This document shows, piece by piece, positions 1 through 22,592 of a stretch of 22,592 bases of DNA. The notes beneath the pieces are model-generated. The model was not told the DNA's origin and searched no databases. It saw only the letters and a list, made by a program, of their open reading frames with translations. The position numbers and the translations under genes are program-made. The stretch's first letter is position 1. Each line of letters starts with the position of its first letter. The stretch spans positions 2,314-24,905 of the forward strand of contig QXYP01000113.1 of assembly GCA_009886815.1 (NCBI GenBank), read 5' to 3'. The stretch comes from Halieaceae bacterium. Its GTDB lineage: Bacteria; Pseudomonadota; Gammaproteobacteria; Pseudomonadales; Halieaceae.

Positions 1-124
1 GTAATAACTCGGTAATCAGGACCACATGTAGCGCCACAGGCACGGTAAGTAAGAGCTCAGTGGTAATCGGCAAATTAGGCTGTAGGTATAGAAAACTAAC
101 AATAAAACTTTGAGGAGAAACGCA

Positions 125-7920: not shown

Positions 7921-9378
7921 TCACAATGACGGATTAAGTTGATTGATAAAAGCCTTTTCAATGGCTAAAGCGAGGCCCAGTAGGTCACGGTCACTGCCAA
8001 TCGGTCCATCAAGCTCAAGACCAACGGGCGGTCCGGCGCTGCTGACCAATGCCGGTAAGCTGATGCCTGGTATCCCGGCATTCGAGCCAGGGTCAGTATT
8101 TCGAATGTAAGTCGTAAATGTGGGCATTGACTTGCCATTCACCTCGACCATTTCCAAGCTGCTGGCAATAGGTCGCGCTTCGACTGGCGTGGTTGGAAAT
8201 ACCATAGCGTCGACGCTGTGACGGTCAAAATACCGCTGATACGCAGCTTGTAAAGTCGCTCGGTGATCATCAACGGCCGTTTGATAGGTGGCCTCGTCAA
8301 TAACACCCGACAAGGCATCGCCAACAACGCCTTTAACGTCGGTGCTGGCAATGGTGCTTAAAAAGGCGTCGATCTCGAGGTCCGGACGATGTGTTGCCAG
8401 GTAGGATCGCAGTAGCTGGTTGGTTTCATAGAGTACGACAGGGAAGCCTACTGCGCCGTTTAAAGCCTCGATATTTGGAATGTCGGCATAAATCAACGTC
8501 ACACCGGCAGCTGTGAGTGCGTTGAGCGATCGCTCCATCGCTGCGCTCACACGAGGGCTCAGGTCTTCATAGAAAAAGGCCTTTGGGACGCCCAGGCGAA
8601 CGCCTGCGAGCGGTGTTTCTGCCAGTGCAGTCACAGGCTCCTGAGTGAGTACGGAGTCTAGCAATGCAGCGTCAGTCACGGTGCGGGTTATAGGGCCTGC
8701 CGTATCGCGGGTCGTTGAAATCAGTGTCATGCCCGCGTTGGGATAACGGCCCGTGCTCGGGCGGAAGCCAACCACGCCATTTAAGGCAGCCGGGATGCGG
8801 ACAGAGCCCCCGGTATCTGTGCCAATGCCAGCATCAACGAGGCCAAGGGCTACTGCTACGGCTGTACCGCCACTGCTTCCCCCCGCGATTAGGGTCGGGT
8901 CAGTCGCGTTTTGCACGATGCCATAGGCTGCGTTGGCGCTGGTTATACCATAGGCAAGCTCGTGTAAATTGTTTTTGCCGGCGATCACGGCGCCGGCTTT
9001 TCTCAGCCGTGTTACTAACTCAGCATCGCGCTTTGGGATCAATTGATCAAATGCAGGCGTACCCGCGGTGTTCGGAATGCCAGCGACATGAATGTTGTCT
9101 TTGATGCTTAGCCGCAGCCCGGTCAGTGGTCCGTCGGCCAGGGGTGGTAGCTCCATTTCAGTGATAAAAGCGCGGTGGGTGCTGCTGTTGTTGGAGCCAT
9201 CGGGTGACTGATGAATTAGCCCGGGGAGCTCGGCTGTAGCGATTTCGCTCACTGGGGCTGGCAACGGCGTGTCCGTGCCTTTGGCACACCCGAGCAGAGT
9301 GACGGTTGCTGCCAAGGTGAGGGCTAATAGCCGTTGCTCGCTGCTGATCAAGGGGTAAGACGATTCGTTGTAAGCCAC
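7921..9378 (-). CDS. Amidase-signature hydrolase, predicted lipoprotein
   Basis: Amidase signature family serine hydrolase, 485 residues from the chosen start. The GTG at 9378 is preceded by AGGAG (complement of 9386-9390) exactly seven bases upstream; a longer frame from a TTG at 9423 has no such site. The Ser-cisSer-Lys triad is complete: Lys93 in LSIKDNIH, Ser168 in GGSSGG and Ser192 in [12 protein letters not shown], with the standard spacings of 75 and 24 residues. The N terminus has a hydrophobic stretch ending in a lipobox (TLLGC, Cys31), so it should be exported and lipid-anchored, whereas most family members (GatA, cytosolic amidases) are cytoplasmic. The family hydrolyses diverse amides including aryl-acetamides; the substrate here is unknown. 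It is divergent from paaZ across about 156 bases with a palindrome, hinting at shared control. It is not GatA, because no gatB/gatC neighbours are present. Confidence 0.9.
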
Positions 9379-9459
9379 GGTCGCGCTCCTGATGTTCGTT
9401 AAAGTGGGGCAGTTGAAAAACAATGCCTGAGCTTACCCCTAGATCCTGTGAGATTAAAC

Positions 9460-9480: not shown

Positions 9481-9498
9481 TTCAATTTTGTGTATCAT
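9470..9498 (+). promoter_or_regulatory. Candidate sigma-70 promoter for the paa operon
   Basis: TATCAT (9493-9498) matches five of six bases of the -10 consensus. A poor -35 (TTACAT, 9470-9475) lies 17 bases upstream inside the palindrome. The predicted transcript would start about 30 bases before the paaZ ATG. A weak -35 would fit an activated or tightly repressed promoter. Confidence 0.35.
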
Positions 9499-9534
9499 AT
9501 TGGCGTTGCTAACGACAAGAGCTGGGTCCGCGTC

Positions 9535-11577
9535 ATGAAGCTAGAGAGTTACGTCTTGGGTGCCTGGGTAAATGGCACGGGTGAAGGTAGGCCTGTCGTC
9601 GACGCCGTCCGGGGCGGGCCCGTATGTACGGTAGATGCCAGCGGCATCGACATGGCAAGCGTGGCCGACTATGGACGCAGGGTAGGTGGCACTGCGCTGC
9701 GTGGGATGACTTTCCATGAACGTGCTGCCGCGCTCAAAGAAACCGCCAAACAGCTCATGGCGATGAAAGAGCAGTTTTATGAGCTCTCCTTTAAAAGTGG
9801 TACCACCCGTGCCGATGCCTGGCCCGATATTGAAGGAGGCTTTGGCACTGCATTAAGTTATGCCAGTTTGGTCACGCGAGAGTTTCCAAACGATTCAGTA
9901 TTCGTCGAAGGGGATATGGAGGCCTTGTCAAAAAATGGCACCTTCGTAGGCCGACATATTTTGACCTCGAAGCCGGGCGTAGCTGTTCATATTAATGCCT
10001 ACAATTTTCCTGTCTGGGGCATGCTGGAAAAAATAGCGCCCAGCTTGCTTGCCGGTATGCCGGTGATTATTAAGCCCGCCACTCCAACAGCGTATTTAAC
10101 GAAGGCAGTTGTTGAGGAGATTATCCGAATAGGACTCATACCTGAAGGTGCCGTTCAGCTAATTTGTGGCAGCGTGGGCGATTTGCTCGACCAGCTGAAT
10201 GAACAGGATGTCGTCACGTTTACAGGTTCTGCAAGCACAGGGCAAACCCTTAAAAATCATCCGAATCTCTTGGCGAACAGCGTGCCATTTACCATGGAGG
10301 CCGATTCTCTAAATTGCGCAATCCTCGGTGAATCCGTTGCAGAAGAAGATCCGGAGTTTCAGCTTTTTGTCAAAGAAGTGGTGCGTGAAATGACGGCAAA
10401 GGCGGGGCAGAAGTGCACCGCGATTCGCCGTGTCATTGTTCCTCACCGGCTAATTGATCCGGTTTCCGAAGCGATCAGGCAACGACTTGCTTCGATAGTT
10501 TCTGGCGACCCGGCACTCGAAGAAGTGCGTTTAGGAGCCCTAGTGAGTGCTGAGCAGGCGAGGGATGTCAGTGCGAAAGTCGCGGCCCTGTGCGAAGAGG
10601 CCACGATTGTTGCCGGGGGCGATCAGGACATGGAATTGGCGGGGCTGACCCACAACCCCGGTGCGTTTTATCCCGCAACCTTGTTGCGCTGCGATAGCCC
10701 CTTGAGTGCTTCGGCGGTACACAATGTGGAAGCTTTTGGTCCTGTCGCCACGATAATGCCTTATCACTCCCTTGATGAGGCTATTGACCTCGCGAGAATG
10801 GGTAAAGGATCGTTGGTTGGTTCGTTATTTACAGCAGACGATTCTGAGGCTCGAACAATGATATTAGGCACTGCGGCTTGGCACGGGCGGATGCTCATCA
10901 TCAACAGCGATTGTGCTGGAGAGTCAACGGGCCATGGCGCACCCCTTGCAAACTTGATTCACGGGGGACCTGGCCGAGCGGGTGGTGGCGAGGAGCTCGG
11001 TGGCAGCAGAGCGATTAAGCACTACATGCAGCGCACGGCTATTCAGGGCTCACCGACGACTTTAATGGCTATCACACGCGAATATCATCGGGGTGCTAAA
11101 GAGGTGCATGACGCCGTGCACCCGTTTAAGAAATATTTCGAAGAGTTGCAAATTGGCGAGACCTTGGTGACGCATCGACGCACTGTGACAGAGGCCGACA
11201 TCGTCAATTTCGGATGCGTCAGTGGTGACCACTTTTATGCGCATTTCGATGAAATCGCGGCGAAAGACTCTTTCTTTGGTCAGCGTGTTGCCCACGGCTA
11301 CTTTGTTATCTCAGCAGCGGCGGGCATGTTTGTACACCCGGCACCGGGGCCCGTTATTGCAAACTATGGTCTTGAGAACCTGCGCTTCGTTGAGCCCGTA
11401 CCCGCCGGCACTACGATTCAGTGCAAGCTGACCGTAAAGCGTAAAATTAAAAAGGCCCAGCGCGGTGACGAAAAGCCCAATGGCGTTGTGGTGTGGGCGG
11501 TCGAAGTGACGAATCAAGACGGAGGCCCCGTTGCTGTCTATGACATTCTGACGCTGGTTGAGCGACAGGAGGCATGA
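9535..11577 (+). CDS. paaZ: Oxepin-CoA hydrolase / 3-oxo-5,6-dehydrosuberyl-CoA semialdehyde dehydrogenase
   Basis: Bifunctional ring-opening enzyme of aerobic phenylacetate degradation: a C-terminal MaoC-like hydratase opens oxepin-CoA and the N-terminal NADP-dependent aldehyde dehydrogenase oxidises the resulting semialdehyde. From the ATG at 9535 ([11 protein letters not shown]) it has 680 residues, against 681 in E. coli. An upstream in-frame start at 9490 would add 15 residues unlike the family. ALDH catalytic residues are Glu255 (FTMEADSLN) and Cys294 ([11 protein letters not shown]). The hydratase residues are Asp565 and His570 ([20 protein letters not shown]). All four fall within five positions of the E. 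coli numbering (E256, C295, D561, H566). It is the first gene of a nine-gene run, with only three bases before paaG. Because both domains are intact, the reactive semialdehyde should not accumulate. Confidence 0.96.
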
Positions 11578-11580
11578 TCA

Positions 11581-12369
11581 ATGCTTTATGAGCATATCGA
11601 GTACACGGTCGCCCGCGGTGTCGCTTGTCTTACTTTAAATAGACCTGACAGCTTGAACAGTTTTACCGCGGCCATGCACGGAGAGGTGGCCGAAGTGTTA
11701 AAAGCTGCCGCTGAGGATCGCGCCATCCGTGCCGTGGTAATCACCGGCGCCGGGCGAGGTTTTTGCGCGGGGCAGGACTTAAACGACCGCAACGTGGCTC
11801 CTGGAGAGCGTGTCGACCTGGGTGAGTCGGTCGATCAATTTTATAATCCCCTTATCCGGCGTATTACCGGTATGGAGAAGCCGGTTATATGCGCTGTGAA
11901 CGGTGTGGCGGCTGGCGCAGGGGCGAATTTAGCCTTGGCGTGTGACTTGGTCTTTGCGGCTGAATCGGCCAAGTTCGTGGAGTCTTTCGCCATGTTGGGG
12001 TTGATACCCGATTCCGGGGGTAGTTGGCACCTGCCAAGAATGATCGGTATGGCCCGCGCCAAGGGAATGGCGATGCTCATGCCCAAAGTTACTGCCCAGC
12101 AGGCCAAGGAATGGGGACTCATCTGGGAGGTGGTAGAAGACGCTAAGCTCATGGATACGGTCATGGCTCTTGCGGAACACCTCGCCACCCAACCCACCCG
12201 AGGTTTTGCCTACACTAAGCAAGCTTTTTCGGCGTCGATGACTAACACCCTTGATGAGCAGCTAGAACTCGAAAAAACCTTGATGAGCACGGCCGGGTTT
12301 ACTGACGACTACGCTGAAGGGGTGAAGGCTTTTCTGGAAAAACGGCAACCGGAGTACAAAGGCCAGTGA
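11581..12369 (+). CDS. paaG: 1,2-epoxyphenylacetyl-CoA isomerase
   Basis: Enoyl-CoA hydratase/isomerase (crotonase) superfamily enzyme of 262 residues, matching PaaG across the whole length. It converts ring-1,2-epoxyphenylacetyl-CoA to oxepin-CoA, and the family also shifts a double bond later in the pathway. Diagnostic blocks are the oxyanion-hole GAGRGFCAGQDLNDRN (about 57-71), AVNGVAAGAGANLALACD (about 105-122), and GLIPDSGGSWHLPR, whose Asp144 corresponds to the catalytic Asp of PaaG. The start is supported by AGGAGG at 11567-11572, eight bases upstream and inside the end of paaZ. Its stop overlaps the GTG of paaI, so the genes are translationally coupled. Generic enoyl-CoA hydratase is unlikely given GQDLNDRN and the neighbours. 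Confidence 0.95.
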   Translation: MLYEHIEYTVARGVACLTLNRPDSLNSFTAAMHGEVAEVLKAAAEDRAIRAVVITGAGRGFCAGQDLNDRNVAPGERVDLGESVDQFYNPLIRRITGMEKPVICAVNGVAAGAGANLALACDLVFAAESAKFVESFAMLGLIPDSGGSWHLPRMIGMARAKGMAMLMPKVTAQQAKEWGLIWEVVEDAKLMDTVMALAEHLATQPTRGFAYTKQAFSASMTNTLDEQLELEKTLMSTAGFTDDYAEGVKAFLEKRQPEYKGQ

Positions 12370-12827
12370 GCAACGACACGAAGGCAGCTACGCCAGTCTC
12401 TGCCGTCGCTGCAGCAATGTGGCAAAGTGATCGAGCCTGTCAGGCGCTGGGTATGGAGCTTGTCAGTGTTGAGGTGGGTAGTGCCCAAATGGCCATGACA
12501 GTCAAAGACCATATGGTTAACGGTCACGGTATATGCCATGGCGGCTTTCTTTTTACACTGGCCGATAGTGCTTTTGCTTACGCCTGTAACAGCCGGAATC
12601 TTGTCACGGTCGCGTCGGGCGCTCGCATTGATTTTTTGAAGCCTGCACACTTGAACGAGCTGTTAATAGCCACGGCATGTGTTGTTCACCAAGGCAAACG
12701 CTCGGGGCTTTATGACGTCACGGTGACTAACAAAGCGGGCGATTGTGTTGCGCAGTTTCGTGGTAATTCGACGACGATTGGTGGTGAAATTGTGCGGCTA
12801 GATTCAGCAGAGGTAGCTAATGACTGA
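12366..12827 (+). CDS. paaI: Hydroxyphenylacetyl-CoA thioesterase
   Basis: Hotdog-fold acyl-CoA thioesterase of 153 residues, slightly longer than E. coli PaaI (140) at the N terminus. PaaI removes CoA from ring-hydroxylated or dead-end phenylacetyl-CoA derivatives, protecting the CoA pool. The signature VNGHGICHGGFLFTLADS AFAYACNS is present, and Asp67 aligns with the catalytic Asp61 of the E. coli enzyme. The alignment through AAAMWQSDRACQALG supports a start near the GTG at 12366, which overlaps the paaG stop by four bases (GTGA). Its end overlaps the start of paaJ by eight bases. Confidence 0.93.
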   Translation: MSNDTKAATPVSAVAAAMWQSDRACQALGMELVSVEVGSAQMAMTVKDHMVNGHGICHGGFLFTLADSAFAYACNSRNLVTVASGARIDFLKPAHLNELLIATACVVHQGKRSGLYDVTVTNKAGDCVAQFRGNSTTIGGEIVRLDSAEVAND

Positions 12828-14025
12828 GGCCTTCATTTGTGATGCCGTCCGTACTCCTATAGGGCGTTATGGCGGTGGTTTATCAGCGGTCCGTACTGAT
12901 GACTTGGGTGCCATACCCATCGCTGCGCTGATGGCACGCAACCCCAATACGGATTGGTTGAGGGTTGACGACATTTGGATGGGTTGCGCTAACCAAGCGG
13001 GGGAAGACAATAGAAATGTGGGGCGCATGAGTGCGCTTTTGGCGGGTATGCCAGCGCAGGTACCTGCCGTTACGTTAAACCGTTTGTGCGGCTCTGGCCT
13101 TGATGCCGTGGGTTCTGCGGCTCGCGCCATCAAAAGCGGTGAAGTCAGTCTGGCGATCGCCGGCGGCGTCGAGTCAATGAGTCGTGCGCCCTACGTGATG
13201 AGTAAAGCGCACTCAGCCTTTGATCGTAACGTACAGACCTACGACACGACTATTGGTTGGCGCTTTGTGAATCCGGTCTTTCAAAAACGTTGGGGTACAG
13301 ACTCAATGCCAGAGACCGCAGAGAACCTCGCCAGCCAATTTGAAATATCGAGGGCGGATCAAGACGCCTTTGCCCTGCGCTCCCAGCAGAAGGCTGTCGC
13401 AGCTCAAGACGAGGGGCGACTGGCACAGGAAATTACAGCAGTGTTGATTCCTCAGCGCAAAGGCGAACCGCTAAGCGTGATCTCGGATGAAGGCCCCAGA
13501 AAGGACACGTCACTAGAGCGTTTAGCCGGCCTGCCAGCCCCTTTTCGAGAGGGCGGCACGGTAACGGCGGGCAATGCCTCCAGCGTCAACGATGGCGCCT
13601 GCGCTCTGCTGCTGGCGTCTGAGGCAGCCGCATCAGCACAGGGCCTGGAGCCATTGGCCCGCGTGGTGGCCATGGCAACTTCGGGTCTTGAACCGCGAAT
13701 TATGGGGCATGGCCCTTACGAGGCGACGTTGAAGGTGCTCGCCCTAGCAGGTTTAAAACTGGCCGACATGGATGTGCTTGAACTTAATGAGGCTTTCGCG
13801 GCTCAGGCCTTGGCAGTAACCCGATCTCTGGGACTTGCCGACGATGCTCAGCTGGTTAATCCCAATGGTGGCGCAATCGCTCTGGGGCATCCACTGGGAA
13901 TGAGTGGTGCGAGGTTGGTCACCACAGCGGCCTATGAGTTACGGCGTAGCAATGGACGTTATGCCTTGTGCACCATGTGTATTGGTGTTGGTCAGGGTAT
14001 AGCCCTAATTATTGAGCGTGTTTAA
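12820..14025 (+). CDS. paaJ: 3-oxoadipyl-CoA / 3-oxo-5,6-dehydrosuberyl-CoA thiolase
   Basis: Degradative thiolase of 401 residues, the length usual for PaaJ/PcaF. In the Paa pathway it acts twice, cleaving 3-oxo-5,6-dehydrosuberyl-CoA and 3-oxoadipyl-CoA, giving acetyl-CoA and finally succinyl-CoA. The acylated nucleophile is Cys90 (LNRLCGSGLDAV), the general base His357 (GGAIALGHPLGMSG), and the second Cys is Cys387 (CTMCIGVGQG). The ATG at 12820 overlaps the end of paaI and has an AGAGGTAG just upstream. PcaF of the protocatechuate pathway has nearly the same sequence, so the name rests on the operon. Only 24 bases separate it from paaA. Confidence 0.93.
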   Translation: MTEAFICDAVRTPIGRYGGGLSAVRTDDLGAIPIAALMARNPNTDWLRVDDIWMGCANQAGEDNRNVGRMSALLAGMPAQVPAVTLNRLCGSGLDAVGSAARAIKSGEVSLAIAGGVESMSRAPYVMSKAHSAFDRNVQTYDTTIGWRFVNPVFQKRWGTDSMPETAENLASQFEISRADQDAFALRSQQKAVAAQDEGRLAQEITAVLIPQRKGEPLSVISDEGPRKDTSLERLAGLPAPFREGGTVTAGNASSVNDGACALLLASEAAASAQGLEPLARVVAMATSGLEPRIMGHGPYEATLKVLALAGLKLADMDVLELNEAFAAQALAVTRSLGLADDAQLVNPNGGAIALGHPLGMSGARLVTTAAYELRRSNGRYALCTMCIGVGQGIALIIERV

Positions 14026-14049
14026 AACAACAGAATGTAGGTGTGTAGC

Positions 14050-15006
14050 ATGAAAGACAATATGTCCTTGGTAGGCAATGAAGAGAAATTTCAATCGAAG
14101 GTCGATGCCGAGGAGAAGGTTGAACCCAAAGACTGGATGCCGGAAAAGTATCGTCAGAATTTGATTCGTCAAATATCCCAGCATGCGCACTCCGAGGTGA
14201 TTGGTGAGCAACCTGAAGGGAATTGGATTTCCCGTGCCCCCACCTTGGAGCGTAAGGCTATTTTGATGGCCAAGGTGCAAGACGAGGCTGGACACGGGTT
14301 GTACTTGTACGCCGCGGCTGAAACCTTGGGCATTACTCGGGATGAGCTTATTGACCGACTGCATACCGGTGCGAGTAAATACGCGTCGATTTTTAATTAT
14401 CCTTCGCTCACCTGGGCTGACATTGGTGCCATCGGTTGGTTGGTTGATAGTGCAGCCATCGTTAATCAGGTTTCCCTGCAAAATACATCCTACGGACCTT
14501 ATGCCCGTGCCATGGTGAAAATCTGTAAGGAAGAGAGCTTTCACCAGCGTCAGGGATACAACATTATGATGACCCTCATGCAGGGTGCTGAGCTCCAACG
14601 TGATATGGCACAGGACGCCTTAAATCGTTGGTGGTGGCCATCGCTCATGATGTTTGGCCCCCATGATGCGGAGTCTGCCCACTCGGCGCAGTCCATGAAA
14701 TGGAAAATCAAACGACGCAGCAACGACGAGCTGCGCCAACAGTTTGTCGATCAGGCGGTGCAACAGGCACAGGCTATTGGGCTTGTAGTCCCAGATCCCG
14801 ATCTTGTTTGGAATGAGCAGCGGGGACATTACGATTTCGGCGCAATCGATTGGGAAGAGTTTCAGCGGGTTGTGTCGGGCAATGGGCCCTGCAATCGCCA
14901 GCGCTTGGCGCATCATGTCAGTGCGCATCAAGAGGGTGCTTGGGTCCGTGAGGCTATGGCTGCCTATGAGGCGAAGCGTCGTGCCGTTCCAGCGGAAGTG
15001 GCGTAA
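14050..15006 (+). CDS. paaA: 1,2-phenylacetyl-CoA epoxidase, catalytic subunit A
   Basis: Catalytic diiron subunit of the multicomponent monooxygenase that epoxidises the ring of phenylacetyl-CoA with O2 and NADPH. From the ATG at 14050 (AGG eight bases upstream) the protein has 318 residues; a GTG at 14041 and an ATG at 14062 are alternatives. All six expected iron ligands are present: Glu49 (QHAHSEV), Glu79 and His82 ([11 protein letters not shown]), Asp133 ([12 protein letters not shown]), and Glu162 and His165 ([11 protein letters not shown]). Further hallmark blocks are [17 protein letters not shown] and [13 protein letters not shown]. It acts in the cytoplasm as a PaaA-PaaC core joined by PaaB and reduced by PaaE. 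It starts the A-B-C-D-E sub-block in the same order as E. coli. Confidence 0.97.
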
Positions 15007-15015
15007 GGAGGCTAG

Positions 15016-15300
15016 ATGTCTGACCAACTTCAGCTTTACGAGGTATTCATTCGCTCAAGTCGCGGGTTAGATCACAAGCATGTTGGCAGCCTTCATGCCG
15101 ATGACGCCCACCAAGCCCTGGAGTATGCGCGGGATGTTTACACGCGTCGCGGTGAGGGCATCAGTATTTGGGTGGTCGCGTCACGAGATATTACGGCGTC
15201 CCAAGAGAGCGATTGCGACAGCTTTTATGATCCTTTAGATGATAAGCCGTATCGCCATGCGGCGATGTACGAGCTGCCCGAGGGAATCGACAGTTTATGA
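15016..15300 (+). CDS. paaB: 1,2-phenylacetyl-CoA epoxidase, subunit B
   Basis: Small non-catalytic subunit that bridges PaaAC heterodimers. It has 94 residues (95 in E. coli) and typical sequence: LYEVFIRSSRGLDHKHVGS near the N terminus, HAADA-like helix DDAHQALEYARDVYTRRGEG, then SIWVVASRDI. The ATG at 15016 has GGAGG immediately upstream within the nine-base gap after paaA. Its TGA overlaps the paaC start as ATGA. Identity is secure from sequence and position. Confidence 0.95.
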   Translation: MSDQLQLYEVFIRSSRGLDHKHVGSLHADDAHQALEYARDVYTRRGEGISIWVVASRDITASQESDCDSFYDPLDDKPYRHAAMYELPEGIDSL

Positions 15301-16055
15301 AGCTGCATGATCCGCTGACGCGGTATGTTGTGCGATTAGGCGATGATGCTCTGATCATGGGTCATCGTTTGTCCGAGTGGATGAGCCGAGCCCCCTTTCT
15401 TGAGGAAGATATAGCACTCTCCAATGTCGCGCTTGATTTCGTGGGGAGGGCGCGTTTGTTTTACCAATATGCGGCCGACCTCATGGGTGGCGAGGTGACT
15501 GAGAATACCTTCGCTTATCAACGCGATGTTCGCGATTTCACGAATCTGCTGCTTTGTGAGCTGCCTCGTGGGGACTTTGCTTTCACCTTGTGTCGCCAGT
15601 TTTTATACGATGCCTATTCTTTACCCTTTACGCAGGCGCTGTGTAAAAGCGCTGATAGCCAGTTGGCGGCGATCGCGGCTAAGGCAGAGAAAGAGAGTCG
15701 CTATCACCTGCGTCGCAGTCGGGATTGGATGTTGCGTTTGGGCGATGGCACTGCCGAGAGCCATGAGCGCTGCCAAAATGCCTTGGATCAGCTTTGGATT
15801 TATACCGATGAGATGTTTGAGTGCGATGCACTACTCGATGGCTTGATAGCCACGGGTGTCGCAGTCAATACCGCGAGTTTACGTTCAGAGTGGCTTGATA
15901 CCGTTACCGAAACACTGCATGCGGCGACCCTTGTGATTCCCGAGGCCCAAGGAGGCGTTACCGGGGGGAGAGAGGGTATTCATACTGATGACCTCGGATT
16001 TCTGCTCGCTGAAATGCAATTTATGCAGCGCGCTTATCCGGGACTACAGTGGTGA
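15297..16055 (+). CDS. paaC: 1,2-phenylacetyl-CoA epoxidase, structural subunit C
   Basis: Ferritin-like partner of PaaA, 252 residues (248 in E. coli), with a structural role and generally without a functional diiron site. Recognisable blocks are LGDDALIMGHRLSEWMS near the N terminus, NVALDFVGRARLFYQYAA, FTNLLLCELPRGDFAFT, and IAAKAEKESRYHLRRSRDW in the middle. The C-terminal GREGIHTDDLGFLLAEMQ is also typical. It is translationally coupled to paaB through an ATGA overlap and is followed by paaD after seven bases. Confidence 0.95.
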   Translation: MKLHDPLTRYVVRLGDDALIMGHRLSEWMSRAPFLEEDIALSNVALDFVGRARLFYQYAADLMGGEVTENTFAYQRDVRDFTNLLLCELPRGDFAFTLCRQFLYDAYSLPFTQALCKSADSQLAAIAAKAEKESRYHLRRSRDWMLRLGDGTAESHERCQNALDQLWIYTDEMFECDALLDGLIATGVAVNTASLRSEWLDTVTETLHAATLVIPEAQGGVTGGREGIHTDDLGFLLAEMQFMQRAYPGLQW

Positions 16056-16062
16056 CCCGAAA

Positions 16063-16584
16063 GTGACTAGTGCCACAGCAGACTGCATTCCTCTTTTACC
16101 GATTGAGGAATTAGCGCGCCGCCGGCGTCGCCATGAGTCCTCAGTAGGCGATATTTGGGATTTGCTGGATAACGTCATGGATCCAGAGATCCCCGTGATT
16201 TCGTTGTACGAACTGGGCGTCTTGCAGGACATAAGCCGGGAGGGTAATGCCGTAAAGTTGGTGCTGACGCCTACCTACATTGGTTGCCCAGCCTTAGGGA
16301 TCATGGAGGAAGACGCTCGAGCTGCACTGACCGCGGGTGGGTACCACCAGGTGATAGTAGAGACTCGTTTGGCACCGGCATGGACTACAGCCTGGCTAAC
16401 CCCCGAGGCACGGCGAAAAATGACCGCTTATGGGGTGGCGTCACCAGAGAAGGGCGGTATCGCGTGTCCTCAGTGCGGGAGTGTCAATACCGAAGTCATT
16501 AGTGAGTTTGGATCAACAGCCTGTAAGTCACTTTTTCGATGTGTTGCTTGCCATGAGCCTTTCGACGTATTTAAGGCGATCTGA
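16063..16584 (+). CDS. paaD: Phenylacetate degradation protein PaaD (Fe-S/maturation factor)
   Basis: A protein of 173 residues from the GTG at 16063, with GGTGA seven bases upstream. Longer frames from 15988 would run back through the end of paaC and add sequence not found in the family. It has an N-terminal MIP18/DUF59 domain (DPEIPVISLYELG, PTYIGCPALG with Cys75) and a C-terminal zinc-ribbon-like part with Cys135/Cys138 and Cys160/Cys163 plus Cys154 in SEFGSTACKSLFRCVAC. PaaD is needed for epoxidase activity but is not part of the purified core complex; a role in metal-centre maturation is the usual inference. An RRRRRH run at residues 19-24 before the DUF59 domain is unusual. It ends one base before paaE. 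Confidence 0.93.
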   Translation: MTSATADCIPLLPIEELARRRRRHESSVGDIWDLLDNVMDPEIPVISLYELGVLQDISREGNAVKLVLTPTYIGCPALGIMEEDARAALTAGGYHQVIVETRLAPAWTTAWLTPEARRKMTAYGVASPEKGGIACPQCGSVNTEVISEFGSTACKSLFRCVACHEPFDVFKAI

Positions 16585-16585
16585 T

Positions 16586-17686
16586 ATGTCTAGTTCGATC
16601 TTTCATCCTTTAAAGGTCGCCCGGGTAGTGCCCGAGACTTCCCAAGCGGTGTGTCTGAGTTTTGAAGTGCCTGTGCATTTGCAAGACGTATTCGATTTTA
16701 AACCGGGACAGTACCTGACTCTTAGAGCAACTATCGATGATGTTCCTGTGAGTCGGGCTTACTCAATTTGTGCGCCACCGTCCTCCCAGCAGCTTACAGT
16801 TGCGATTAAGCGCGTTGAGAACGGGGTCTTCAGTAATTTTGCCAATGACCACGTGCAATGCGGCATGACGCTTGAGGTGATGGCCCCCCAAGGAAATTTT
16901 GGGCTGCCGGCGGCGGCCACTGACACCAATTATTTATTTATTGCTGCGGGCTCGGGTATCACCCCGATTATGTCCATGCTGATAGCGGCATTAGAAGCAG
17001 ACCCTAAGGCGACAGCGACTTTGCTTTACGGCAATCAGCGCTCTTCCAGCATTATGTTTCGCCAGCAGTTATCTTTTCTTAAAAATCAGTATCTGGAGCG
17101 TTTTAACTGGATCAATATATTGAGTCGGGAGACCCAAGATGCGCCAGTGCTCAATGGTCGTATTGATAATCAGAAAGGGGCGGAGTTGAGCCGCAAAATA
17201 CTTAATCTAAAGGGTTTTGGTGGGTTTTTCCTGTGTGGTCCCGAATCTATGATTTCTGAGGTATCCAGAGGCCTGCGAGATAGTGGAATCCCTGAAGATA
17301 AAATCAAGTACGAGCTTTTTGGAAGCTCTGCCGCTGATGCAGCAGAGCGGGTTGCTAAGCACCATGCTCGTGCAGAGGCTTTTTCCGGAACAATGTGCGA
17401 CGTCACGCTGGTTAACGATGGGCGCGCTAGCCAAGTTCGCATTGCCGCAGATGGTGAAAATTTATTGGACGCAGGTTTGAATTTAGGACTCGATTTGCCC
17501 TTCGCGTGTAAAGGAGGGGTGTGCTCAACCTGTAAAGCATTGTTGGTTGAAGGCGAAGTTGAAATGGATATTCAGCGAGGCTTAACGGCTGATGAAATCG
17601 CGCGGGGTATGATACTCACCTGTCAGGCTCACCCCATTTCTAAGCGCGTTCATATCGATTTTGATAAGCGCTGGTCTGGAGGCTAA
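16586..17686 (+). CDS. paaE: 1,2-phenylacetyl-CoA epoxidase reductase, subunit E
   Basis: Electron-transfer subunit (NADPH to FAD to 2Fe-2S to PaaA), 366 residues against 356 in E. coli. The ATG at 16586 follows the paaD stop by one base. Upstream in-frame starts within paaD would add up to 52 residues without family match. Domains in order: an FAD domain with RAYS (57-60) and GVFS (80-83), an NAD(P) domain with AAGSGITPIMSM (about 120-131) and FFLCGPESMI, and a C-terminal plant-type ferredoxin domain with Cys308, Cys313, Cys316 and Cys346 (C-x4-C-x2-C-x29-C). It is the last recognisable paa gene; 77 bases with no clear terminator separate it from the transporter pair. Confidence 0.95.
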   Translation: MSSSIFHPLKVARVVPETSQAVCLSFEVPVHLQDVFDFKPGQYLTLRATIDDVPVSRAYSICAPPSSQQLTVAIKRVENGVFSNFANDHVQCGMTLEVMAPQGNFGLPAAATDTNYLFIAAGSGITPIMSMLIAALEADPKATATLLYGNQRSSSIMFRQQLSFLKNQYLERFNWINILSRETQDAPVLNGRIDNQKGAELSRKILNLKGFGGFFLCGPESMISEVSRGLRDSGIPEDKIKYELFGSSAADAAERVAKHHARAEAFSGTMCDVTLVNDGRASQVRIAADGENLLDAGLNLGLDLPFACKGGVCSTCKALLVEGEVEMDIQRGLTADEIARGMILTCQAHPISKRVHIDFDKRWSGG

Positions 17687-17763: not shown

Positions 17764-18006
17764 ATGACAGACGCCAATATTGAAGCGGTGCACCGCAAGA
17801 CCCGACAGCGATTGTTGTTTACCGGGATACACCTGATTCTTTATTTCTCTTTTACCCTCAACTGGACGAGTTGGGGTGAGCGTTTAGGTGGTTATTTGGG
17901 TGAAACTCGATTGACCGGTTCGCTGCTGATGTTTGTTGTTCTCGTTTTAACGTTTATTGTTCTGGAGACCATTTTTCTCCTGCTGTCTCGCCGGGAGGCG
18001 CGATAA
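17764..18006 (+). CDS. Small two-helix membrane partner of a sodium:solute symporter
   Basis: An 80-residue protein with two predicted membrane segments (about residues 16-36 and 46-72), a basic N-terminal stretch (HRKTRQR) and a basic C terminus (SRREAR). The ATG at 17764 has AGAGGTAG just upstream. Its stop overlaps the start of the ActP-like symporter (TAATG). Small two-helix proteins of the DUF485 (YjcH) or DUF4212 type regularly precede such symporters. I favour DUF485-like because the partner resembles ActP, but the sequence is too short to be sure. Its biochemical role in these pairs is not established. Confidence 0.75.
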   Translation: MTDANIEAVHRKTRQRLLFTGIHLILYFSFTLNWTSWGERLGGYLGETRLTGSLLMFVVLVLTFIVLETIFLLLSRREAR

Positions 18007-19670
18007 TGCAGCGTCTATTGTGTAAAGGAGTGCCCGGAGTTGCTCTGCTGCTGTGGTCTGATTTTATATTGGCTGCTGGTGCCCTCGAAGGCGCTTCTGG
18101 ACGTCAAGCAGTCAATCCTATTGCCATTGGCATGTTCCTGCTATTCGTTGCTTTTACCCTTTATGTCACCTGGTGGGCCTCAAAGTCGACAAAAACCAGT
18201 TCCACGTTTTATAACGCCGGCGGTCAAATAACAGGCGCTCAAAATGGTCTCGCTATTGCGGGCGATTTTATGTCTGCAGCGTCTTTTTTGGGTATCACAG
18301 GGCTGATGTATGTAGGGGGGTTCGACGGCTTGATTTTGTCTTTGGGCGCCTTTGGTGCTTGGCCGGTATTTATGTTTTTGTTCGCCAAGCGTGTGCGCAA
18401 TCTGGGTAACTTCACCTTTATCGATGTTATCTCTCAAAGGTTAGACCGCGACCCTATACGACTCGTCACAGCTTTTAGCACGATCCTCATCGTTATTATG
18501 TATCTTATTGCACAGATGGTGGGGGCGGGCACGCTCATCCAATTGCTGTTTGGATTGCCTTATGAGTGGGCTCTTTTGCTCGTTAGCGTGCTGGTGCTCG
18601 CCTATGTTGCCTTTGGTGGCATGTTGGCCACGACCTGGGTACAGATTATCAAGGCTGGTTTATTGCTCACGGGTGTAACGCTCATCTCTGCGTTACTACT
18701 GGCAGATTCAGAGTTCAGTTTCTCTAATTTATTGGGCAAAGCAACAGCAAATCATCCCAGCGGTGAAGGCATATTGCGTGCTGGCTCGATCTTTGACGAC
18801 CCTGTGCAAATACTGACTATTCAGGTTTCGATGTTGTTCGGCACGGTAGGCTTGCCCCATATTCTTATGCGGCTGTTCACGGTCCCGAATATGCATCAAG
18901 CCAAGCTATCTGCTTACTACGCGTCCTTATTTATTGGGTATTTTTATATTGCCCTGCTGGTATTGGGGTTTGGTTCCATAGCCTATGTGGCGGGAAATCC
19001 CGAATTTTTTAATGACCAGGGCAAGCTAATTGGCGGCAGTAATATGGCTGCGATCCATGTGGCGACCGCTATGGGCGGAGATATTTTGACGGGCTTTATG
19101 TCGGCGGTGTGTTTTGCCACCATTTTAGCGGTGGTTGCTGGGCTAACCCTCTCGGGTGCCGCGGCCATTTCTCACGACGTGTATGCGGAGGTGCTTAAGA
19201 AAGGGAAGCCCGATCCAAAAACAGAGCTGCGATTAACCCGTATTAGTGTCCTGCTCATCGGTTTCGCCGCGGTCTCACTGGGTATTGCTTTCCAACATGA
19301 AAATATCGCGTTTATTGCGACGATTCCTATGGTGGTTTCGGCTTCGGTGACTTTTCCTATTCTATTTCTTTCGCTATTTTGGAAGGACTTTACGACTAAG
19401 GGCGCTTTATATGGCGCGGGGGTGGGACTGGTTTCCTCGATTGTTCTCATTGTCTTGGGGCCTCAGGTTTGGGTATCTGTGTTGGGTAACGTCGAGGCGT
19501 TGTTTCCTTATGATTATCCCGCCTTGTTCACTATGCCGGCTTCCGTATTGGTGATGGTCGTTATTTCACTGCAAGATCGCAGCGAAAGAGGGGGCATAGA
19601 TCGGGAAAACTACGATCGTTTGCTCGTGCGCTCAGAATACGGACCATCAGTGACAGAGGCGCTTGATTAA
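18006..19670 (+). CDS. ActP-like sodium:solute symporter, possible phenylacetate permease
   Basis: Cytoplasmic-membrane transporter of the SSS family, 554 residues. It carries an N-terminal signal-like segment and strong similarity to the ActP acetate permease type: FYNAGGQITGAQNGLAIAGD, MSAASFLGITGLMYVGG, YLIAQMVGAGTLIQLLFGLP, FGGMLATTWVQIIKAG, GLPHILMRLFTVP and FATILAVVAGLTLSGAAA. About 13 membrane helices are expected. ActP relatives transport acetate and other short monocarboxylates, and some pseudomonad phenylacetate permeases (PaaL/PhaJ) belong to this family. Location directly after paaE makes phenylacetate uptake the leading inference; acetate is the main alternative. No convincing terminator follows. 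Confidence 0.88.
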   Translation: MQRLLCKGVPGVALLLWSDFILAAGALEGASGRQAVNPIAIGMFLLFVAFTLYVTWWASKSTKTSSTFYNAGGQITGAQNGLAIAGDFMSAASFLGITGLMYVGGFDGLILSLGAFGAWPVFMFLFAKRVRNLGNFTFIDVISQRLDRDPIRLVTAFSTILIVIMYLIAQMVGAGTLIQLLFGLPYEWALLLVSVLVLAYVAFGGMLATTWVQIIKAGLLLTGVTLISALLLADSEFSFSNLLGKATANHPSGEGILRAGSIFDDPVQILTIQVSMLFGTVGLPHILMRLFTVPNMHQAKLSAYYASLFIGYFYIALLVLGFGSIAYVAGNPEFFNDQGKLIGGSNMAAIHVATAMGGDILTGFMSAVCFATILAVVAGLTLSGAAAISHDVYAEVLKKGKPDPKTELRLTRISVLLIGFAAVSLGIAFQHENIAFIATIPMVVSASVTFPILFLSLFWKDFTTKGALYGAGVGLVSSIVLIVLGPQVWVSVLGNVEALFPYDYPALFTMPASVLVMVVISLQDRSERGGIDRENYDRLLVRSEYGPSVTEALD

Positions 19671-19758: not shown

Positions 19759-19774
19759 CCGAGAAAGCATAACG
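19739..19774. repeat. Inverted repeat flanking the candidate -10
   Basis: CGTTATG (19739-19745) and CATAACG (19768-19774) are exact reverse complements separated by 22 bases that contain the candidate -10 TATACT. It could be an operator with half-sites on both sides of the promoter core, or chance. Confidence 0.35.
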
Positions 19775-19877
19775 TGTTACCTATTGTGGTTGGGTAGGGT
19801 GCAACGCAACATCAGCGGTCATTGTAGGCCGCGTGTAAGTCGCGCAAGGCACGGTTAAAAGTGCCTGCATAAAAAGA

Positions 19878-19915: not shown

Positions 19916-21337
19916 ATGTCTGATTATTCAATGCTTATAAACGGTGAAGCCGCTACGGCGGAACACGCAATTGAGGTGATTAATCCTGCAACTGAGACTG
20001 TCATAGCGACAGTGCCGGAGGCCAGTCTCGCCCAGCTCGATGAGGCTGTAGCAGCGGCTAGAAGCGCGTTACCCGACTGGAGCGCGCGGTCTATGGATGA
20101 CCGCAGAGCACTCATCTTAAAAATTGCCGATCGGCTAGAAGAAAATATTGGAGAGCTCGCTCAGCTCCTTAGCGAAGAACAGGGCAAGCCCATTGAGGGC
20201 TTTGCCGGCTTAGGCGCTATGTTTGAGCTCGGGGGCAGTCTCGCATGGATACGATACACGGCCAGCTTAGATTTACCCATTGAGGTTATTCAGGACAACG
20301 ACGAGGCGCGCATTGAGGTGCACCGCAAACCTGTGGGCGTAGTGGGTTCCATTACTCCTTGGAATTACCCGCTGTTAATCACCTGTTGGCACATAATTCC
20401 CGGTCTACTTTCTGGCTGTACCGTGGTGGCGAAGCCTTCTGAGTACACACCCCTTACGGTGCTGAAAGCGATGCATTTGATCAGTGACTTATTGCCCCCT
20501 GGTGTCGTGAACATTGTCACTGGCAAGGGCGCGTTAGGGGCGGCGATATCATCTCACTCTGACATCGATAAAATCGTGTTCACCGGTTCAACCCGCACGG
20601 GTAAGCGGATTATGGAAGCCGCTGCTGATAACTTAAAGCGCCTCACCTTGGAACTCGGGGGCAACGATGCGGCAATTGTATTGCCCGATACCAATGTGGC
20701 AGAGGCAGCGGGTAAGATTTTTGCAACGGCCATGATCAACAATGGTCAGACTTGCGCAGCTTTGAAGCGGCTCTACGTGCATGAAGACATTTACGATGAG
20801 ATGTGCGATGCCCTTGCGGCCATTGCGCAGAGCGTTAAAACAGGCCCGGCTTCAGAGAGCCCAGACTTTGGCCCCATCCAAAATAAAATGCAGTACGACC
20901 GGGTTTGTGAGCTTGCAGAATCTGCTAAGGCCGATGGCGCGACTTTCTTGAGTGGTGGTGAGCCCATGCCAGGTCCGGGGTATTTCTTTCCGGTAACGAT
21001 TGTTAAGGATATACCCGAAAACAGTCGATTGGTTCAGGAGGAGCCTTTTGGTCCCATCCTGCCTGTCGTGAGTTTTTCAGATGTTGAAGATGCTTTGGAA
21101 AGAGCCAATGCGGTGTCGGTAGGCCTTGGCGGCTCGGTGTGGTCCAGTGACGTGCCTGCCGCGCAAAAGCTAGCCTCACGACTCGAGTGCGGTACTGCCT
21201 GGGTCAACAATCACGCTATGATTCAACCTGATGCGCCTTTTGGCGGCGTTAAACAGTCAGGCGTTGGCGTTGAATTTGGTCGCTACGGGCTGGTGGAATA
21301 CACCAACATCCAAACCTTACAAATTTCTAAAGGCTGA
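19916..21337 (+). CDS. Aldehyde dehydrogenase (NAD(P)-dependent), likely phenylacetaldehyde or similar
   Basis: A 473-residue ALDH-superfamily enzyme, cytoplasmic (no signal peptide). Catalytic residues are intact: Asn150 (SITPWNYP), Glu246 (LTLELGGNDA) and Cys280 (NNGQTCAALKR). FTGSTRTGK is the coenzyme-binding turn, and EEPFGPILPV and FGGVKQSGVGVE are family C-terminal blocks. The enzyme oxidises an aldehyde to an acid with NAD(P)+. Because the next gene encodes an amine dehydrogenase large subunit and the paa genes lie upstream, phenylacetaldehyde is the favoured substrate, but sequence alone does not separate it from other medium-chain or aromatic aldehydes. It is 20 bases from the next ATG, so the two are probably co-transcribed. 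Confidence 0.92.
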   Translation: MSDYSMLINGEAATAEHAIEVINPATETVIATVPEASLAQLDEAVAAARSALPDWSARSMDDRRALILKIADRLEENIGELAQLLSEEQGKPIEGFAGLGAMFELGGSLAWIRYTASLDLPIEVIQDNDEARIEVHRKPVGVVGSITPWNYPLLITCWHIIPGLLSGCTVVAKPSEYTPLTVLKAMHLISDLLPPGVVNIVTGKGALGAAISSHSDIDKIVFTGSTRTGKRIMEAAADNLKRLTLELGGNDAAIVLPDTNVAEAAGKIFATAMINNGQTCAALKRLYVHEDIYDEMCDALAAIAQSVKTGPASESPDFGPIQNKMQYDRVCELAESAKADGATFLSGGEPMPGPGYFFPVTIVKDIPENSRLVQEEPFGPILPVVSFSDVEDALERANAVSVGLGGSVWSSDVPAAQKLASRLECGTAWVNNHAMIQPDAPFGGVKQSGVGVEFGRYGLVEYTNIQTLQISKG

Positions 21338-21357
21338 TCACAGTGCGAGGAATAATC

Positions 21358-22530
21358 ATGGTTAAGCAAGGCTTATTTGTGGCGCTACTGGCCGCCGTGG
21401 CTGTTCTGGCCAGCGCGCAGGAGACCCAGCCACCACTTCCTGTAGAGCCAACCGGCATCATCGAAACGCTGCCAGCGCGATATCCGGCTGACTGGTTTTT
21501 TGTTCATGACGCGGCCTTCTTCCACATGTCTGATGGAAAGGTCTATCTCTTAGACACTGACAAGGATTCGATTGGCGATCAAGTGAAAGGGCTGTTTCCT
21601 GTCAGTTTGATGGGCACCTTTATTGAGGCGCCCTCGCGGGGTGAAATCTTTGCGGTTGAGACGTTTCATACTCGAGGTACCCGCGGCGATCGTATCGACG
21701 TGCTGACAATCTGGGACACGGTAAATCTTGCGGCGATTGCCGAGGTCATGCTCCCCACTGGCAAGCGCTTTATGGGTATGCCCGAGCGTGTTGCGCTACA
21801 ACTTTTAAAGAACGATCGCTGGCTCGCGATTTTTAATCTCAGTCCATCGACAACGGTCACGCTGGTTGACCTAGATACCCGTGCCGTCATCGGTGAGATT
21901 CCGATTCCAGGTTGCAGCTTTATTTATGCAAACGGGGACATGGGTTTGAGTGCATTGTGTGCCGACGGCCGCATGCTAACGGTGGTGCTCAATGACGATG
22001 GCTCCGAAAAATCCAGAGTAATGAGTGAAGCTTTTTTTGATTCAGACGACTCCCCCATTTTTGAACGGCCTGCCATGGTCGGTGATATCGCCTACTTCCC
22101 TGCCTTTGACGGGCGAGTACAGCCTGTTGCCATGACCGGAAACGCCGCTTTACCTATGGCGTCCTGGCCGCTATTTGGCAAGGGCGAGGAGGCTTGGGCG
22201 CCTTCGGGTATCGGTATTGACAGTGAGGATGATCTAGGTCGCATTTATTTTCTGATGAACGCTGAGGCTAATGGCGTTGACGGTATGCATAACGCCGGGG
22301 GCAGTGAGATCTGGGTGTTCGATCCTGAGGCAAGGCGCCGCGTTCTCCGGATTCCTCTCCAAGCCTGGGGTCTTTCGTTAGCGGTGGGCCGAGGTGAGGA
22401 GCCTAAAGTACTGGTGACTAATCCCACTGATATGAGTGTGGAACTGTACGACGGTTTGACCGGAAGTTTTATGAAGAAAATTACCGGCTTTGGTCAGGAA
22501 ACGCCGCTTCTGCTGAGGGGTGCTGAGTAG
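21358..22530 (+). CDS. Methylamine/aromatic-amine dehydrogenase large (heavy) subunit, TTQ type
   Basis: Periplasmic beta-propeller subunit of a quinohemoprotein-free TTQ amine dehydrogenase (MauB/AauB family), 390 residues from the ATG at 21358 (GAGGA six bases upstream; the GTG at 21343 is less likely). Residues 1-20 form a signal peptide (cleavage after LASA). Family features: FVHDAAFFHMSDGKVYLLD, an ETFHTRGTRGDRIDVLTIWD block aligning with YHERITRGKRSDVVEVWD of aromatic amine dehydrogenase, a Cys186/Cys201 pair, and AEIWVMD-like GSEIWVFDPEARRRVLRIP. The small subunit carrying the tryptophan tryptophylquinone cofactor must lie past the window end. These enzymes oxidise primary amines to aldehyde and ammonia and pass electrons to a cupredoxin or cytochrome. 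An aromatic-amine role is inferred from the paa and ALDH neighbours; methylamine is the alternative. Confidence 0.88.
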   Translation: MVKQGLFVALLAAVAVLASAQETQPPLPVEPTGIIETLPARYPADWFFVHDAAFFHMSDGKVYLLDTDKDSIGDQVKGLFPVSLMGTFIEAPSRGEIFAVETFHTRGTRGDRIDVLTIWDTVNLAAIAEVMLPTGKRFMGMPERVALQLLKNDRWLAIFNLSPSTTVTLVDLDTRAVIGEIPIPGCSFIYANGDMGLSALCADGRMLTVVLNDDGSEKSRVMSEAFFDSDDSPIFERPAMVGDIAYFPAFDGRVQPVAMTGNAALPMASWPLFGKGEEAWAPSGIGIDSEDDLGRIYFLMNAEANGVDGMHNAGGSEIWVFDPEARRRVLRIPLQAWGLSLAVGRGEEPKVLVTNPTDMSVELYDGLTGSFMKKITGFGQETPLLLRGAE

Positions 22531-22592
22531 ATGTTGCTGTCTGTCTTAGTGGCCGGTATCGCGGCTTTTGTAGGGATTATCTTTTTTCACGC
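22531..22592 (+). CDS. MauE/AauE-like membrane protein, 5' end only
   Basis: An ATG immediately after the stop of the amine dehydrogenase large subunit opens a frame that stays open to the window edge. It encodes 20 residues that are strongly hydrophobic (MLLSVLVAGIAAFVGIIFFH), consistent with a first transmembrane helix. In mau and aau operons the large-subunit gene is followed by mauE/aauE, an integral membrane protein needed for small-subunit maturation, so this is the expected gene. The assignment rests on position and hydrophobicity only. Confidence 0.6.
   Translation, partial: MLLSVLVAGIAAFVGIIFFH

Follow-up and report, generated by a model that had tools for sequence, protein, structure and literature searches.

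The closest described relatives of the system analysed here are two amine dehydrogenases with a tryptophan tryptophylquinone (TTQ) cofactor. The aromatic amine dehydrogenase of Alcaligenes faecalis (PDB 2agy family) is encoded by a cluster whose gene order we take to be aauBEDA and which, as Chistoserdov reportedly found in 2001, also lacks mauG, and the methylamine dehydrogenase (MADH) of Paracoccus denitrificans is encoded within mauFBEDACJGMN. Other bacteria reach phenylacetate with other enzymes. Passages of one report describe an Escherichia coli route in which TynA and FeaB convert 2-phenylethylamine through phenylacetaldehyde to phenylacetate, which then enters the phenylacetate degradation (paa) pathway (PMC4640556), and passages of another state that the genes of the Pseudomonas quinohaemoprotein amine dehydrogenase (pea) do not form one operon in the strains examined there (PMC3644233). 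A third account presents penicillin G acylase as an enzyme that scavenges esters and amides of phenylacetate, with a promoter that is bound by PaaX in E. coli (PMC9493321). Here we analyse a stretch of 22,592 nucleotides from a Halieaceae bacterium (the window; G000:C17:2314-24905, which reaches the end of a contig of 24,905 bases) in which genes for a TTQ amine dehydrogenase follow the paa genes. We propose, with a probability of roughly 70%, that this enzyme oxidises 2-phenylethylamine in the periplasm and thereby feeds phenylacetate degradation, the substrate being the one to which the gene neighbourhood points.

The plus strand of the window carries, in this order, paaZGIJABCDE, an open reading frame (ORF) of 80 amino acids, an ActP-like symporter gene, aldH, the large-subunit gene and the start of mauE, and PaaX- and PaaK-type genes lie upstream of the window on the same contig. 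The initial annotation had placed a TTQ amine dehydrogenase operon behind paa genes and a transporter on the same strand, and this arrangement was found. The remainder of the operon lies on a separate contig of the same genome (G000:C353, 7,800 bases; locus L005). The features are as follows.

9490..17686, plus strand: paaZ, paaG, paaI, pcaF/paaJ, paaA, paaB, paaC, paaD and paaE, assigned by NCBIfam equivalogs
17764-18006, plus strand: 80-amino-acid ORF in front of the symporter gene, without a Pfam or NCBIfam match
18006..19670, plus strand: ActP-like sodium/solute symporter, proposed to take up phenylacetate (NF006903, 712 bits; cut-off of 750 not reached)
19770..19780, no strand: candidate operator, near-palindrome TAACGYGTTAC in the 245-bp actP-aldH gap, from conservation
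19916..21337, plus strand: aldH, aldehyde dehydrogenase, proposed to convert phenylacetaldehyde to phenylacetate (PF00171, E 1.6e-147)
21343..22530, plus strand: ORF of the TTQ amine dehydrogenase large subunit (PF06433, E 9e-24)
22531..22592, plus strand: mauE, beginning only, with its start codon at 22531; the gene leaves the window
G000:C353, 7252-7776, minus strand: mauE (PF07291)
G000:C353, 6644-7264, minus strand: mauD (TIGR02661, 176.6 bits; cut-off of 188.6 not reached)
G000:C353, 6126-6647, minus strand: small subunit (PF02975, E 1.6e-52)
G000:C353, 5669-6181, minus strand: monohaem cytochrome c, one CxxCH
G000:C353, 5091-5672, minus strand: dihaem cytochrome c, two CxxCH
G000:C353, 4055-5113, minus strand: AraC regulator
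G000:C353, 1448-3871, minus strand: TonB receptor
G000:C353, 3-1379, minus strand: amidohydrolase

The second contig thus supplies both genes that the initial annotation had expected downstream, mauD and a small subunit with the paired tryptophans. The assembly is fragmented (374 contigs, 86% complete), and the ends of the two contigs share an 86-bp overlap with 82 of 86 positions identical, a close, non-identical match as in a mixed-strain assembly. The operon gene order is settled because the whole block, from the paa genes through the amidohydrolase, stands on a single contig in five of eight named relatives (L008, L009 (HTCC2080), L011, L012 and L013). Of the remaining three, L007 and L010 are truncated where their contigs stop; in L014 (Haliea) no paa match occurs within 8.5 kb upstream of aldH. 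At the level of sequence, a complete predicted TTQ amine dehydrogenase operon, split across two contigs here, is confirmed.

The association with paa extends to gene content. Among 57 genomes of the genus, taken to be Luminiphilus, many of them incomplete (54-100%), the small subunit was found in 11 and paaA (E<=1e-60) likewise in 11; the two occur together in 10 genomes, 45 have neither, and two have one alone (Fisher 2.7e-9, uncorrected for relatedness). The contig of G457, where only the subunit was found, begins inside the large-subunit gene (L136, L010), and that of G456, with paaA alone, ends inside aldH (L211). We also inspected 83 other non-MADH loci, a set that leaves out five MADH loci and duplicates and includes eight plasmid stretches and L145 from the same genus. 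In five of these (L039, L161, L186, L187 and L188), spanning four genera since L187 and L188 share one, paaA or paaZ lies near the enzyme; 0.35 linked loci would be expected if one paa cluster were placed at random in each 4.2-Mb genome. NCBIfam cut-offs are passed by PaaA of L039 and L187 and by PaaZ of L186, and L161 holds a PaaZ fragment cut by the locus edge (446 of 563 bits) together with PaaK above its cut-off. The link to phenylacetate degradation drawn in the initial annotation is therefore conserved in relatives and recurs in other genera. We found no paper on an amine dehydrogenase-paa linkage in the open-access literature, which is weak evidence of absence, as subscription papers lay outside the search.

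The paa genes make up the phenylacetyl-CoA pathway set, namely PaaABCDE, PaaG, PaaZ, PaaJ and PaaK. PaaZ, G, I, J, A, B, C and D exceed their NCBIfam equivalog cut-offs and PaaE, at 391.8, falls slightly under its cut-off of 420.8. PaaK was assigned from its Pfam domains, its adjacency to PaaX and 65% identity to the copy in L161, which passes TIGR02155. The locus resembles the E. coli tynA-feaB-paa system in that the route would lead from an amine to phenylacetate and on to paa, whereas a copper amine oxidase producing hydrogen peroxide acts there and a dehydrogenase with cytochromes is predicted here; PF01179 had no match in the genome of the window. With the Pseudomonas pea route the proposed pathway would share the chemistry to phenylacetate, and it differs in cofactor and subunits.

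To place the enzyme, one quick tree of 98 large subunits was rooted on five MauF-linked enzymes, with SH-aLRT as the sole support measure, long branches at L185 and L191, and A. faecalis represented by a fragment of about 330 residues. The window groups with Luminiphilus rows (13 rows, SH-aLRT 100), which are nested in a larger clade of 40 rows under the window-L033 ancestor (42 when drawn with an open fork). The A. faecalis enzyme belongs to a different clade of 17 rows, and forcing it into the window's clade was rejected in an AU test (p 0.005). On the initial annotation's question of AauB versus MauB, the large subunit does not group with methylamine dehydrogenases, and it does not group with A. 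faecalis AauB either; a plain AauB assignment was ruled out by tree and test. We regard the enzyme as a predicted variant of the known TTQ family with a clade of its own, and no characterised member of that clade was found.

The Luminiphilus operon shares with aauBEDA the large-E-D-small order, the TTQ tryptophans, the catalytic aspartate, a cytochrome c gene downstream and the absence of MauG-type genes at the locus, and plasmid relatives and others with A. faecalis-type locus organisation were seen among the compared loci. It is unlike aauBEDA in its subunit identities (27% for the large and 58% for the small subunit, measured on fragments), its separate clade, a serine in place of Thr172, an aldehyde dehydrogenase gene and a dihaem cytochrome c. 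The large subunit probably starts at an ATG at 21358, as read from the sequence, and has a signal peptide by eye. A sequence search of the PDB retrieved aromatic amine dehydrogenase at E 2e-36 and methylamine dehydrogenase at E 2e-17. The AlphaFold2 model (pLDDT 91.7, pTM 0.86) was compared with the PDB using Foldseek: the best 14 matches are A. faecalis aromatic amine dehydrogenase, and every match at ranks 1-28 is an aromatic or a methylamine dehydrogenase, with TM scores of 0.76-0.82 by query length and identities of 26% (aromatic) and 12-22% (methylamine); the next match falls to E 2e-10. The large subunit is thus predicted to have the fold of the solved TTQ dehydrogenases, among which the A. 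faecalis enzyme comes first in sequence and fold searches because no closer one has been solved.

The small subunit keeps the equivalents of the TTQ tryptophans W109 and W160 and of the aspartates D84 and D128 in what we take to be A. faecalis numbering, also used for Thr172. Each of the 14 cysteines that the A. faecalis fragment contains is retained, and the leader bears paired arginines by eye. The position of Thr172 is serine in 38 of 38 scored rows of the window's clade and threonine in 17 of 17 rows of the A. faecalis clade. Ten rows of the next set and four of the remaining rows have serine as well, and the tree requires six or more changes of the trait.

A nearby aldehyde dehydrogenase gene (>300 bits) is usual in the window's clade, where it was found in 32 of 40 loci. 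The A. faecalis clade has none in the 16 loci examined, the next set 2 in 25 and the rest 4 in 16. These counts rest on 3.5 to 21 kb of DNA per locus, with some loci ending at a contig end and with one sequence present twice, as L008 and as L141. The second-best PDB relative of AldH is the phenylacetaldehyde dehydrogenase 4o5h (E 6e-110). The protein stays under the cut-off of every NCBIfam model among the best 25 of 43 matches, and no signal peptide was seen by eye.

Two PF03150 (MauG/CCP-type) proteins are encoded elsewhere in the genome, on C212 and C60 (loci L045 and L046), away from the operon, and are candidates for a MauG that might act in trans. Their neighbours, named by eye, are an ORF resembling a selenium-binding protein and a dihaem cytochrome/parallel-beta-helix ORF. 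Among the 83 other non-MADH loci, four (L180, L181, L195 and L196) have a MauG-type gene of 264-360 bits behind the TTQ operon. One might speculate that the window's clade is a third functional TTQ group, a dedicated phenylethylamine:cytochrome c dehydrogenase marked by the Thr172-to-Ser change and its own aldehyde dehydrogenase, in which TTQ would be built without a MauG-type enzyme at the locus and the dihaem cytochrome would serve cofactor maturation or electron uptake; we consider this proposal as a whole decidedly doubtful.

Further genes of the window may yield phenylacetate from other sources.

110..2425, plus strand: TonB-dependent receptor, before the acylase gene (TIGR01783, under cut-off)
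2505..5057, plus strand: amidohydrolase resembling penicillin G acylase, the second proposed source of phenylacetate (PF01804; PDB relatives)
7921..9423, minus strand: amidase, indoleacetamide-hydrolase-like, proposed third source of phenylacetate (NF005688, 509.9 bits, cut-off 532; PF01425)

Besides these two enzyme genes, the window holds two TonB receptors in all. The closest solved relatives of the acylase are penicillin G acylases (E 2e-151), followed by D-succinylase (3e-39) and cephalosporin acylases (1e-16), and Ser302 stands at the start of the beta-chain. A weak NCBIfam match had suggested a PvdQ-like acylase, a label that was dropped after the PDB search favoured penicillin G acylase. 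The phenylacetyl-CoA catabolon of E. coli, in which PaaX controls penicillin G acylase, is similar in that an acylase gene accompanies paa and a PaaX regulator, and differs in that an amine dehydrogenase operon joins the cluster here.

Acylase and amidase genes are kept beside paa in NOR5-1B (L197) and others; in L211 neither was matched between paaK and paaZ. The TonB receptor-acylase pair recurs beside the amine dehydrogenase operon (L159, L164), beside paa (L209) and beside an ActP-like gene (L207, L208), as well as in L210, and the amidase accompanies it in four of these six loci. The acylase (E<=1e-60) occurs in 10 of the 57 Luminiphilus genomes, every one of which has the small subunit. 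Outside the genus, where the search covered 53 of about 70 enzyme-bearing genomes, a homologue (E<=1e-40) was found in seven: less than 10 kb from the enzyme in two (G634, G550), elsewhere in four (G600, G627, G510, G503) and on a short contig in G420. Two linked acylases would not exceed chance alone, and the stronger argument comes from the receptor-acylase pair and its conservation. Three modules that could yield or use phenylacetate are thus linked pairwise in various lineages and all together in Luminiphilus.

The gap before aldH (240-270 bp) contains a palindrome, (G)TAACGCGTTAC, that is kept with one- or two-base variants in an alignment of seven gaps. The candidate operator at 19770..19780 is the single match of its motif in the window at up to one mismatch, with 0.6 expected by chance, and none was found in L005 or L006 at this stringency. 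When the 450 bp preceding aldH are compared with TAACGCGTTA, 9 of the 10 other Luminiphilus loci have a match with at most one mismatch and the tenth (L129) has one with two; none of the 19 remaining aldH-linked loci matches at up to one mismatch, and three of them have two mismatches. One match in the window is within chance, and the conservation is the evidence. Neither a sigma-70-like site nor a terminator turned up when the actP-aldH gap was scanned for such signals. Since the palindrome is conserved before aldH, the unit of aldH and the amine dehydrogenase genes probably has regulation of its own, with the palindrome as putative operator; one candidate regulator may be the product of the AraC gene at the operon's end.

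We propose the following pathway. In the periplasm the TTQ dehydrogenase would act on an arylethylamine, with 2-phenylethylamine the likeliest, and release the aldehyde and ammonia. MauE and MauD would serve the export or folding of the cysteine-rich small subunit, and the two co-encoded cytochromes c, monohaem and dihaem, would accept the electrons. Once inside the cell, the aldehyde would be oxidised to phenylacetate by AldH, and ring opening and breakdown would fall to PaaK with PaaABCDE, G, Z and J. Additional phenylacetate may come from amides through the penicillin G acylase-like enzyme and the amidase. The analysis establishes gene content and order, the cofactor residues, conservation and co-occurrence; the substrate, the path of the electrons and the parts played by acylase and amidase are inferences. 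We judge the functional prediction sound.

Several observations weigh against this proposal. The overlap between the two contigs is 95% identical, short of 100%. AldH reaches no phenylacetaldehyde dehydrogenase cut-off, and the cluster shows neither PaaF nor PaaH, the genome as a whole not having been searched for either. Other Halieaceae have the same aldH-linked operon without paa in the DNA examined around it. The large subunit is 27% identical to the A. faecalis enzyme and outside its clade, and therefore the substrate cannot be read across. Finally, at the position aligned to MADH Phe55, presumably the gate residue of methylamine dehydrogenase, the window has Phe, as do 5 of 5 MADH rows, and A. 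faecalis has Met. The title of a PDB entry among the Foldseek matches names Phe55 mutants. The gate residue is ambiguous as a substrate predictor because the alignment is gapped there.

Some of these points would fit a different main substrate, such as tyramine, tryptamine or a branched or longer aliphatic amine, with AldH oxidising the resulting aldehyde and paa serving only the products of the acylase and amidase. That the clade has no characterised member found, that many of its members have aldH without paa in the DNA examined, and that the gate-position Phe resembles methylamine dehydrogenase all agree with this alternative. It accounts poorly for the presence of paa and enzyme together in 10 of 57 genomes of the genus and the absence of both in 45, for the paa linkage in four other genera, and for HTCC2080, which has paa beside the enzyme and no acylase detected. 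We judge another main substrate unlikely.

Methylamine dehydrogenase, for nitrogen or C1 metabolism, is the function that database names suggest: 27 of 28 named rows, among 120 listed, read 'methylamine dehydrogenase light chain' (hand count), the exception being L. syltensis NOR5-1B, which is named aralkylamine dehydrogenase. MADH models do match both subunits, and the locus shares subunit families, MauE and MauD with the P. denitrificans mau cluster. Both MADH equivalog cut-offs are missed (TIGR02658, 92.4 versus 454; TIGR02659, 156 versus 197), the large subunit lies outside the MauF-linked clade in the tree, and MauF, MauJ, MauG and amicyanin have no match in the window's locus or the other Luminiphilus loci. 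On these grounds the enzyme was not classed as a methylamine dehydrogenase, and with paa adjacent, methylamine as its substrate is highly improbable. That the two contigs are unrelated, with the large subunit of the window and the small subunit of G000:C353 from different operons, draws on the four mismatches in the overlap and is scarcely credible given one PF06433 and one PF02975 match in the whole genome (with one MauE above cut-off and a second below) and the identical order on one contig in the five relatives.

The wider collection holds several TTQ loci of other composition. Large- and small-subunit genes are adjacent in some, with mauE and mauD behind them (L033, L191) or unmatched (L034, L042). 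In G376, a single contig (L144) bears a tandem of two TTQ dehydrogenases that belong to different subclades, and L145 is a second, different TTQ operon in G480 (taken as L. syltensis NOR5-1B), without aldH or paa nearby. In L037 (9674-10198), a small-subunit gene with a cytochrome c gene sits between aminotransferase, FAD oxidase and aldehyde dehydrogenase genes, and its 18.7 kb have no large-subunit, mauE or mauD match, the rest of G006 not having been searched for a large subunit. The small-subunit and aldehyde dehydrogenase genes of L154 (G422) are split over frames, which indicates decay or sequencing error, and G515 has four PF02975 matches in a single genome.

Surveyed by PF02975, the small subunit occurs in 28 of 140 genomes of the family, 36 of 293 of the order (35 over cut-off) and 13 of 398 of the phylum (12 over cut-off). 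The view in the initial annotation that TTQ dehydrogenases are much rarer than copper amine oxidases did not hold: they were found in 13 and 8, respectively, of the same 369 gammaproteobacterial genomes. Three of those 13 have MauF (L041, L043 and L044).

The interest of the system lies in its uncharacterised clade, its block-wise co-occurrence with paa and the formation of TTQ without a linked MauG, which raises the question of how the cofactor is made; HTCC2080 and L. syltensis NOR5-1B are named strains that carry it. The analysis gives this clade of TTQ dehydrogenases a testable substrate. If the proposal is true, counting close relatives named 'methylamine dehydrogenase' as evidence of methylamine use in marine surveys would be wrong, and aromatic amines and phenylacetyl amides are suggested as food for marine Luminiphilus.

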